NCBI GenBank assembly: GCA_013696965.1
Contig: JACCXN010000040.1
Span: 1-20,805 of the forward strand
Length of the DNA stretch: 20,805 nt
DNA from: Bacteroidota bacterium
GTDB taxonomy: Bacteria > Bacteroidota > Bacteroidia > JACCXN01
Direction: 5' to 3'
Below the pieces are notes generated by a model, which did no database searches, was not told where the DNA came from, and saw only the letters and a list, made by a program, of their open reading frames with translations. The position numbers were made by a program, and so were the translations under genes. Positions 1-20,360 of this stretch are shown here, one piece after another (the first letter of the stretch is position 1; every line of letters begins with the position of its first letter).

Positions 1-25
1 AAAAGCCCGCTGGAATCAGCGGGCT
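1..25 (-). terminator. Attenuator-type intrinsic terminator after the trp leader peptide
   Basis: A perfect 9-bp stem, AGCCCGCTG with CAGCGGGCT around a GAAT loop, occupies 4-25. On the minus strand it is followed by a run of T that continues to the window edge. It begins 31 bases after the stop codon of the Trp-rich leader peptide, which is the arrangement expected of a transcription attenuator. The controlled gene, probably trpE or another tryptophan gene, would begin beyond the left edge. I did not find a convincing competing antiterminator pairing. Confidence 0.8.
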
Positions 26-56
26 CAGTATTTTTGAAATAACAAAAAAACAGGAA

Positions 57-122
57 CTACTTCATCCAACCTTGCGGGAAGAAGTGCCACCACCAATTGT
101 TATTTAATAGATTCTGTTTCAT
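57..122 (-). CDS. Trp-rich leader peptide (trp operon attenuator peptide)
   Basis: This 21-codon reading frame begins MKQNLLNNN, continues WWWHFFPQGW and ends MK before a TAG stop. Three consecutive Trp codons plus a fourth near the end make 4 of 21 residues tryptophan, far above chance. It lies directly upstream of an intrinsic terminator and downstream of a good Bacteroidota promoter. Leader peptides of this kind sense charged tRNA-Trp: scarcity stalls the ribosome at the Trp codons and lets transcription continue into the biosynthetic genes. The peptide probably has no function of its own. The target operon is outside the window, so assigning it to trpE or trp genes is inference. Confidence 0.85.
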   Translation of the reverse strand: MKQNLLNNNWWWHFFPQGWMK

Positions 123-131
123 TGTAGACTG

Positions 132-164
132 CAAATATAAGTGAAAAATATTTAATTCTGCAAA
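132..164 (-). promoter_or_regulatory. Promoter of the trp leader
   Basis: On the minus strand TATATTTG (139-132) matches the Bacteroidota -7 consensus TAnnTTTG. A TTTG (164-161) lies 21 bases upstream as a -33 element. The predicted transcription start near 128 is only about six bases before the leader ATG at 122, so the leader mRNA may be almost leaderless. Confidence 0.6.
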
Positions 165-359: not shown

Positions 360-1337
360 TTATTTAATTTTCCAAATAGAATTGGTGAAATAATTGGCAC
401 TGTCAAAGAAATTTCTTACTACCTGAAAGCCACATTCTCCAGCAAGCAGGTCAATTTCCTTAAGAGAATACTTTTTAGAAATTTCAGTATGAATTGCCTC
501 TCCCTCTTTAAAGGGCACAACCATTTCCAATGCAGGAATTTCTACACTTTGAGAAATTTTACTAATAAGAAAACTACGTGCCTCACCACTCTCAGAATCA
601 TAATAAGGAGAATGTTCAAACAGATCGGGATTAAAATTTGCTTTCATCTCCCGGTTAATTCTGTGAAGCAGATTTAGATTAAATTCTTTGGTAACGCCTG
701 CTTTATCATTATAAGCCGCCAGAATTACATCAGGGTCTTTCCGCAAATCAAAGCCAATTAACAGAATGTCCTCCGAAGCCATTGCATTAGCTATTTCTTT
801 TAGAAAAATTCTGGTTTCCTCATTGGAAAAATTACCAATGTTAGAACCTAAAAAAAGTAAAACCTTCTTGCAGCTTTTTTCTAACTCTTTCAGGGCAGAA
901 AAGTATTCTTTACAAATTCCGGCAACATTTATTTCAGGCAAATTGCTCCTGAAATCTATCAAAATACTGTTGATTGCATTTTGGGATATATCAACAGGAA
1001 CATAAGTAAAATTCAATCCCTTCTTATTAAAATGGTTCAGAAGAATTTTTGTTTTAAATCCGTCCCCGGCTCCTAAATCAACTATTTTAAGAGCTTCGCC
1101 CGGATCCAACAATGAAAGAATAGTTGCCTTATGATTATTTAAAATTTCAAGTTCGCATCTTGTAAGATAATATTCCGGAAGTTCCATTATCTTCCGGAAA
1201 AGTTCATCTCCTCTTTTGTCATAAAAATATTTTGATTTTAAAAATTTAGGTGATGAAAATAATCCCTTAATAACATCTATTATAAAATCACTATCTGCTT
1301 TTGCAGGACTTACAATGTCTACGTCACTTTTTCTCAT
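360..1337 (-). CDS. egtD: L-histidine N-alpha-methyltransferase (EgtD family)
   Basis: This 325-residue protein is a SAM-dependent methyltransferase of the EgtD (histidine-specific, Methyltransf_33) family, which trimethylates histidine to hercynine, the first step toward ergothioneine. Visible family features are FYDKRGDELF (38-47), LPEYYLTRCE (53-62), the SAM loop DLGAGDGFKT (87-96), LFLGSNIGNF (161-170), GFDLRKD (195-201), a conserved stretch near 208-230, and HTEISKKYS (283-291), whose Glu and Ser match the substrate-binding pair known in mycobacterial EgtD. Length is normal for the family. No EgtB partner is visible, although the neighbouring genes to the left lie outside the window. The start at 1337 is only 14 bases from the terminator hairpin of the upstream gene, leaving no room for a separate promoter. 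The gene may depend on read-through. About 235 bases between its stop and the trp leader hold no evident gene. Confidence 0.88.
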   Translation of the reverse strand: MRKSDVDIVSPAKADSDFIIDVIKGLFSSPKFLKSKYFYDKRGDELFRKIMELPEYYLTRCELEILNNHKATILSLLDPGEALKIVDLGAGDGFKTKILLNHFNKKGLNFTYVPVDISQNAINSILIDFRSNLPEINVAGICKEYFSALKELEKSCKKVLLFLGSNIGNFSNEETRIFLKEIANAMASEDILLIGFDLRKDPDVILAAYNDKAGVTKEFNLNLLHRINREMKANFNPDLFEHSPYYDSESGEARSFLISKISQSVEIPALEMVVPFKEGEAIHTEISKKYSLKEIDLLAGECGFQVVRNFFDSANYFTNSIWKIK

Positions 1338-5605: not shown

Positions 5606-6556
5606 CTATTTTGATAATACTAAGTATCTATCCTCTAAAAGTATCCGATACTTTTCTTTGTACTCATTTGATAAAAAAGAATTATCAACCCACTCAATCG
5701 CAACAGGTTTGTTATTTATAAAACGTTTAAACACACCTTCAATTTGTTTCTCATTTAGCTCTAAAATTTTTCCAAGCCATTCAAAATTTTCGCGCCTTAA
5801 TTTTTTCTTTTTCCCTTCAAGCGTTAAAGCAAGCTCCTCCTTGTTGCCAGGATTAACAATCACGACATTCAATAGATCGTAGGCAGGAGCAAGCACCCAT
5901 TTAGTATCGGTATTAATCATGGAAAAATTTTTAAGGTGCATGTCATTGTTGCCAGTAAGAAAACTAAAAATGCTTAACTCTAAAAAATACAGTTTGTCAA
6001 GTAAAGTATCGCTGGAATATTCTCCTAAGGCTTTTCCAACCCTTTCCATAGAATTCTTGTATTTATCGAATGCTTCCAAAATTTGAAACATATCCAGCAT
6101 GTGAATTTTTTCCCCGCTTTCTTTCCGGTCAATTCGTTTGGTGATATAAGATAATTCTCCCGATTGCAACCGTATCAAACTTGACTTCACTGTATGTATT
6201 CCAAAAGCTTCTGCGATCCGCATGGTTACATGCTCATTTTGAGGCATTTCTGGATAATGCTCTGAGGGAGGCTTGAAAATATAATTTCCGCCTAAAGCCC
6301 CAACAACTGTTAAACGACCTTTATTCCCATCTACCATAGTATCTTTAACCAATGACAAAGACAGTTTAGGTTGCACACCGGGTAAAGCAATACTTCGCTT
6401 CACTATATCCTTAGCTAACTCAGACATCTGATTTAATGAATAAGATAATAGAGGTGCTTTTTTTGTTCCGAAAAACGCTAAGCTACAATAATCGTGAAAA
6501 TCACTTTCAATTTGTTTGTCCAGTTCTTTATAACAGTATAAACATTTCTTATTCAT
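5606..6556 (-). CDS. hipT: HipT-like Ser/Thr kinase toxin (HipA kinase core)
   Basis: The 316-residue product corresponds to the HipA kinase part without the N-terminal subdomain, which is encoded separately by the upstream gene, as in HipBST systems. It opens with a likely zinc-binding motif, CLYC then DFHDYC (Cys5, Cys8, His21, Cys24). Kinase features are SIALPGVQPKLSL (55-67), the Gly-rich loop with a nearby Ser for autophosphorylation, Lys95 in YIFKPP, the catalytic loop NNDMHLKNFS (Asp205, Asn210), and Asp227 in PAYDLLN. All key residues appear present. I chose the ATG at 6556, which overlaps the hipS stop in ATGAATAA; an ATG at 6580 would add eight residues. Known HipA/HipT proteins phosphorylate aminoacyl-tRNA synthetases; the target here is unknown. 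Confidence 0.85.
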   Translation of the reverse strand: MNKKCLYCYKELDKQIESDFHDYCSLAFFGTKKAPLLSYSLNQMSELAKDIVKRSIALPGVQPKLSLSLVKDTMVDGNKGRLTVVGALGGNYIFKPPSEHYPEMPQNEHVTMRIAEAFGIHTVKSSLIRLQSGELSYITKRIDRKESGEKIHMLDMFQILEAFDKYKNSMERVGKALGEYSSDTLLDKLYFLELSIFSFLTGNNDMHLKNFSMINTDTKWVLAPAYDLLNVVIVNPGNKEELALTLEGKKKKLRRENFEWLGKILELNEKQIEGVFKRFINNKPVAIEWVDNSFLSNEYKEKYRILLEDRYLVLSK

Positions 6557-6881
6557 CTTCTTCCGGTATTGGTTTAACACTTACCGCTCCGATGCAATTT
6601 TTACAACAGGCCAAAAGCAATCCCATTCGGTCATTAGGATTTATTTTCCAGTTTTTTGCTGCGATTTCTAACAACCATCCTTCAGGAATAAGACCTTCAA
6701 AAAAGGGGAATAACCGATTTTCGCCATAAGGATGCTCAGTAACCGGCATAGAAAAGGTAATAAACTGATCAGGATACTTCGCAACATAATCCCGGTCATA
6801 CTGGAAAGTGTATTGACCTTCGTTGGTTTCAGTAAGAATACCGGCAACTACATCTTTATAATATATTTCTGCTCGCCTCAT
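6549..6881 (-). CDS. hipS: HipS-like protein (HipA N-terminal subdomain, probable antitoxin)
   Basis: This 110-residue protein matches the HipA N-terminal subdomain: a beta-rich start (AEIYYKDVVAGILTE), then FSMPVTEHPYG, FPFFEGLIPEGWLLE and the closing IGAVSVKPIPE typical of the domain end. In most HipA proteins it is fused to the kinase; here it is a separate gene, as in HipBST, where the small protein rather than HipB neutralises the kinase. It overlaps hipB by ATGA and hipT by ATGAATAA, so the three are translationally coupled. The antitoxin role is inferred from that family. Confidence 0.82.
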   Translation of the reverse strand: MRRAEIYYKDVVAGILTETNEGQYTFQYDRDYVAKYPDQFITFSMPVTEHPYGENRLFPFFEGLIPEGWLLEIAAKNWKINPNDRMGLLLACCKNCIGAVSVKPIPEEDE

Positions 6882-19340: not shown

Positions 19341-20360
19341 TTATTTTATAACATTAACCTTTTGCACCATTGTAGATTGGTCAGTTGTTATTTTTACAAA
19401 ATATGTTCCAGGTGGCAAGTCTTTCAAATCAATACTTGCTTCTAATTTAGGAATAATGGTAAGGATGTTTTTTCCTGTAATATCAATTAAATTAATTTCA
19501 TTAACCTTAAGGTCAGAAAAATTAATTGTTAATACCCCTGTAGCAGGATTAGGAAAAACAGTGATATTATCTTCAGTTATTTTTAAAATTGAAGTAGGAT
19601 CTGATGCAGGAAGGGCAACTAATTCCCCACCAGTTGGAAGAGCAACAAACAACCCAAAAGATGCACCGTTACTGTTGTTCTCAGGCATTAAAAAACCTGA
19701 TGTAATTACAACTATTGCTTGATTTTCCAGCCCTAGTGTTGCTAAAGGAGCATTAACAGAAGCTAAAGTTGTATTTCCCTGATCCCTTACTTCTAATACA
19801 TAATCAATTGTTGGCAATTCAAAATATCCTGCGAACTGTGAATATGCTGCATCTTCCACTACGGTTCCTGCTCCAAATCCTACTTCAACAATATCAATAA
19901 GCGGTGCATCTGTTACTCCATGGTAAACTAAAACATCAGTAAAATTGGAAAGTCTGGCAGTTTCCCTTGCCCCGGTAAATACTTGCAGGGTAAATGCGGG
20001 TGCGGGGGTATAACCCTGATCTGAAATTATCCCTGAAGCAACTACAACATAGGTTTGGTCCATTTCAAGAGTAAAAGGAAAGGATGCAATTGCCTCACTG
20101 GGACCTGAACTATTGCCAGGGGCAATTTGTACATTCATTTCCCTGCCTGCAGGTACGGTTCTGTATTCAGTAGCAGTTCTAAACTGAAAGTTATCCTCAT
20201 ACATTTGTCCATCAACATATATGTCAATTGTTTGAGCTGCGGCATCTGCTGAATTGTGAATAATTTGCACCCTTGCTGTTTGTGCATTGGTACTGCTAAA
20301 AAATAGCATTATGGGTATAAAGAATGCAATTATTGAAATTGCAAAAGGCTTGTTTTTCAT
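19341..20360 (-). CDS. Secreted DUF4397 protein with T9SS type A sorting domain
   Basis: The 339-residue protein has a Sec signal peptide (MKNKPFAIS, hydrophobic core, cleavage about after NA at 26). Two related beta-sandwich modules of DUF4397 type follow: ARVQIIHNSADAAAQTIDIY (29-48) with DQTYVVVASG (101-110), and LVYHGVTDAPLIDIVEV (144-160) with ENQAIVVITSG (212-222). Residues about 263-339 form a type IX secretion C-terminal domain: VFPNPATGVLTINF, INLIDITGKNIL, IDLKDLPPGTYFVKI and VQKVNVIK. The product should cross the outer membrane by the T9SS and lose this domain on secretion or surface attachment. DUF4397 has no defined activity. It is monocistronic; I could not define the promoter. 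Confidence 0.9.
   Translation of the reverse strand: MKNKPFAISIIAFFIPIMLFFSSTNAQTARVQIIHNSADAAAQTIDIYVDGQMYEDNFQFRTATEYRTVPAGREMNVQIAPGNSSGPSEAIASFPFTLEMDQTYVVVASGIISDQGYTPAPAFTLQVFTGARETARLSNFTDVLVYHGVTDAPLIDIVEVGFGAGTVVEDAAYSQFAGYFELPTIDYVLEVRDQGNTTLASVNAPLATLGLENQAIVVITSGFLMPENNSNGASFGLFVALPTGGELVALPASDPTSILKITEDNITVFPNPATGVLTINFSDLKVNEINLIDITGKNILTIIPKLEASIDLKDLPPGTYFVKITTDQSTMVQKVNVIK

Follow-up and report, generated by a model that had tools for sequence, protein, structure and literature searches.

Ribosome-mediated trp attenuators are already known in Bacteroidota. The Bacteroid-trp family (RF01692; Weinberg et al. 2010, PMC2864571) has been noted ahead of the trp operon of Flavobacterium psychrophilum (PMC6414381), in which leader-peptide attenuation before amino-acid operons has also been inferred (PMC9723704). 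Attenuators of the classical E. coli type are described by the Trp_leader family (RF00513), and a leaderless trpL is described in the Alphaproteobacterium Sinorhizobium meliloti, with additional trans-acting roles for its attenuated RNA and its peptide (PMC7298713). Here we analyse an element lying at the extreme left edge of contig C40 of a Bacteroidota genome; the whole contig, 20805 bp, was analysed and is referred to as the window. The element is very probably an intact ribosome-mediated transcription attenuator of a Bacteroidota tryptophan biosynthesis operon, the operon itself being missing from the assembly, and as such is an ordinary but clean case.

The element resembles Bacteroid-trp in phylum, in its Trp-rich leader peptide and in the place its relatives occupy before trp genes, but scores 23 bits (E = 3.2) against the curated RF01692 cut-off of 49 bits. 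With Trp_leader it shares tandem Trp codons, a leader hairpin and a terminator in identical order, and differs in its near-leaderless start and in a segment 1 that lies ahead of the Trp codons; the RF00513 score is 34.4 bits (E = 2e-5), under the cut-off of 41 bits, with the match running off the contig end. Like S. meliloti trpL, it is a trp attenuator whose predicted transcript begins at or close to the leader ATG. As it falls under both cut-offs, the window is formally in neither Rfam family. Two undoubted trpE leaders, L074 and L075, are also under the RF01692 cut-off (37.8 and 39.2 bits, respectively) and a third, L066, exceeds it. The RF01692 model seems to cover less than the whole biological class, and the present leader suggests that it misses many true leaders.

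Leader, promoter and terminator at the contig edge

All parts of the element are on the minus strand, a point left unstated in an earlier reading made from the sequence only, and the contig truly ends at window base 1. The leader ORF (122-57), MKQNLLNNNWWWHFFPQGWMK, comprises 21 codons with Trp at residues 10, 11, 12 and 19, the tandem Trp codons lying at 95-87, the fourth at 68-66 and the UAG stop at 59-57. The intrinsic terminator at 25-4, AGCCCGCUG-AUUC-CAGCGGGCU, has a perfect 9-bp stem and an AUUC loop, as the sequence-only reading had noted in describing a 9-bp GC-rich terminator. That reading called the attenuator complete, which is slightly overstated, as the contig stops within the U-tract and only four U are visible. 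Among the general features of trp attenuators, the window contains a tandem-Trp leader ORF, an intrinsic terminator and a 1:2-like helix. That these represent a chance ORF beside an ordinary terminator, with no regulatory role, has a negligible probability; scores under the Rfam cut-offs would fit such a reading, but short ATG ORFs (8–40 aa) with WWW are expected at 0.017 per dinucleotide-preserving shuffle, compared with the one present, and the homologous leaders before trp genes and the conserved pairings described below contradict it.

The promoter (132-164), which the same reading had judged good, is of the Bacteroidota type, with TTTG at 164-161, a 21-nt spacer and the -7 box TATATTTG at 139-132. 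An E. coli-type promoter scan of the window did not pick it up, as expected for a Bacteroidota sigma factor. In Flavobacterium johnsoniae the promoter consensus is TTTG/TAnnTTTG and the start site lies 4–5 nt from the -7 box (PMC6847099). The leader ATG is situated 9 nt past the TATATTTG box, and the F. johnsoniae spacing would therefore give a 5′ UTR of approximately 4–5 nt, in agreement with the earlier estimate of a start about six bases before the ATG. The same TTTG/-7 box arrangement is found upstream of most relatives' leaders. A TAnnTTTG box lies no more than 15 nt from the start codon in 14 of 17 trpE leaders, the 17 being those in L066-L095 that have such a box in the 60 nt preceding the leader ORF. 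The trp leader ORFs are thus unusually near the -7 box, which suggests near-leaderless leader mRNAs across the class. Leaders exceed 10 nt in 87% of F. johnsoniae transcripts (PMC6847099), and only about 3.7% of 5′ UTRs in B. thetaiotaomicron are shorter than 10 nt (PMC7366714). Given the leaderless trpL of Sinorhizobium, the near-leaderless start constitutes a noteworthy trend and not a new principle.

Alternative pairings in the leader RNA

Two pairings recur in these leaders: helix A, the anti-antiterminator, formed by the stretch directly before the Trp codons with the stretch before the terminator, and helix B, formed by the leader stop-codon region with the terminator apex. In the window, helix A is a perfect 9-bp helix between segment 1, AAAUAACAA (97-105, directly 5′ of the Trp codons), and segment 2, UUGUUAUUU (37-45), with p = 0.03 for the window alone. 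Its sequence is identical in L074 and L075, while other leaders have different yet complementary sequences. Helix B in relatives is often GUGAACAGC:GCUGUUCAC, a convincing version being absent from L069, L084 and L089.

When the 24 trpE leaders and the window were taken together, the mean helix score of the true pairs exceeded that of all 5000 random re-pairings for both helix A and helix B. Per-leader shuffles with the window excluded gave combined values of 1.8e-10 for A and 1.6e-10 for B. For the antiterminator, the RNA that a ribosome positioned on the first Trp codon would leave exposed was folded with the terminator 3′ arm incomplete, and compared with folds in which the upstream sequence was shuffled; the exposed RNA was more stable than shuffled RNA, with a combined value of 1.4e-11 over the 24 trpE leaders, and combined values overstate independence as the leaders are related. 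Ten further leaders, unused in forming the idea and some of them mutually close, gave 0.009 (A), 0.0005 (B) and 4.2e-8 (fold).

In the window itself, the candidate 5′ side of the antiterminator, GUUGGAUGAAGUAGUUC (54-70), spans the stop codon and would pair with 26-23, 20-18 and 14-9. RNAfold of the exposed RNA gives GUUGGA:UCCAGC, AGU:GCU and GUUC:GAGC together with a U-rich inner hairpin, at -17.3 kcal/mol versus -13.3 kcal/mol for shuffled sequences (p = 0.08), a value short of significance, which makes the window's antiterminator, taken alone, no more than suggestive. Whole-state energies are -22.6 for the antiterminator and -27.2 for the terminated state. The sequence-only reading had seen no antiterminator and had supposed a mechanism differing from the E. 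coli four-segment model. Neither view is supported, as both the anti-antiterminator and the antiterminator reach significance in relatives and the window has candidates for each; the antiterminator was probably overlooked because it is interrupted and does not form one long helix.

Comparison of the 24 relatives lends strong support to both pairings, which follow the E. coli 1:2, 2:3 and 3:4 logic. Helices A and B cross and should therefore be mutually exclusive. As read from these pairings, the architecture is that of E. coli with segment 1 shifted ahead of the Trp codons, a simple arrangement that these leaders make testable for Bacteroidota trp attenuators. Transcription would start some 5 nt upstream of the AUG of the leader. 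With ample Trp-tRNA, the ribosome would clear the WWW codons and arrive at the stop codon, masking the 5′ side of the antiterminator; segment 1 would then be free to pair with segment 2, the terminator would form and transcription would stop. With scarce Trp-tRNA, the ribosome would stall on WWW and mask segment 1, breaking the 1:2 helix, and the stop-codon region, left free, could base-pair with the terminator's loop and 5′ arm. The antiterminated RNA polymerase would then transcribe the gene that follows in the sequence missing from the assembly, in all likelihood trpE or trpD.

Homologous leaders and the missing downstream gene

Homologous leaders were sought in two ways. Full-length trpE loci of the class were re-oriented and scanned for leaders, and of 30 fetched loci 24 proved to have a short Trp-containing leader ORF within about 420 nt upstream of trpE; the number of Trp codons in these leaders ranges from one to four, a tandem of two or three being commonest, and nearly all the leaders are followed by a terminator. 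Two of the remaining six loci are cut by contig ends and four have no clear leader. The conservation of Trp codons on which the sequence-only reading had made its interpretation depend is thus observed, in the form of tandem codons in relatives. In addition, the window's own 170 bases were used as a DNA query against 395 class genomes, returning 30 loci, of which 17 were inspected and 11 carried WWW leaders. Five of these lead into trpE (L298, L307, L310, L311, L325) and six into trpD (L300-L304, L308), with one trpE and one trpD example assigned separately. L298, which is the same place as L074, has in common with the window a run of 24 nt around its Trp codons. The earlier reading of the element as a trp attenuator with a Trp-rich leader peptide, a near-leaderless start and a terminator is upheld. 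The trpD loci, in which the WWW leader stands ahead of trpD near oriented locus position 1500, belong to the split trp operons of some Bacteroidota, and a trpF-like frame follows trpD where the locus extends far enough. One genome, G080, has two leaders, L078 before trpE and L300 before trpD, which differ in both peptide and terminator.

The gene downstream of the window's own leader would lie off the contig, and trpE, trpD, trpC, trpB and trpA were all absent from the genome bin, which is rated 100% complete. The genome's single chorismate-binding enzyme was considered as TrpE and rejected as PabB-like. Neither trpE nor trpC was found in two members of the same family, G001 and G002, although these are only 81% and 86% complete, respectively, and full-length TrpE was undetected in roughly two out of three of the relatives searched in the class. 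These absences would be expected of a relic in which the trp operon has been lost and the leader left without a target, or of a mixed population with and without the operon that broke the assembly. We regard this as unlikely, as every part is intact, from the promoter and the ORF with its four Trp codons to the two helices and the terminator, and the contig dead-ends at the leader and does not run on across a deletion junction. It is less likely again that an intact trp attenuator has been kept in a lineage truly lacking tryptophan biosynthesis and now controls a non-trp target.

The absence of biosynthetic genes from the bin would also be compatible with control of a different Trp-linked gene, for example one for a transporter or for tryptophanyl-tRNA synthetase, and a leader CDS does precede trpS in Caulobacter (PMC4117421). 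This is highly improbable here: trpE or trpD follows each of the 11 WWW leaders most similar to this one, the TrpS/TyrS-type genes of the genome sit inside other contigs, away from their ends, and visual inspection of the 67 other dead contig ends brought up no trp-like or Trp-linked gene. The left end of the contig did not overlap any other part of the bin (207 ends of its 106 contigs read); many contig ends have about 127 bp in common, and the right end of the window overlaps contig C79. An exact genome scan for WWW[HLYF]FFP led to ten loci that were inspected and rejected, none being leader-like and WWW occurring in frames of unrelated sequence, and looser WWW patterns were useless, being swamped by chance matches. 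Most simply, the trp operon would be on a contig left unassembled or unbinned. A contig that ends in an orphan leader can flag a missing operon in a genome rated 100% complete, one that would otherwise pass as a tryptophan auxotroph.

Other genes of the window were identified on the same strand. The gene upstream of the leader (360-1337, minus strand) encodes a histidine-specific methyltransferase (PF10017, EgtD-like). A protein with a HipA-like C-terminal domain (PF07804) is encoded at 5606-6881 (minus strand) and is preceded by a short overlapping ORF (6549-6881), an arrangement resembling a split HipA-type pair. At 19341-20360 (minus strand) lies a gene for a DUF4397 protein with a Por secretion C-terminal sorting domain (PF18962), which fits Bacteroidota.
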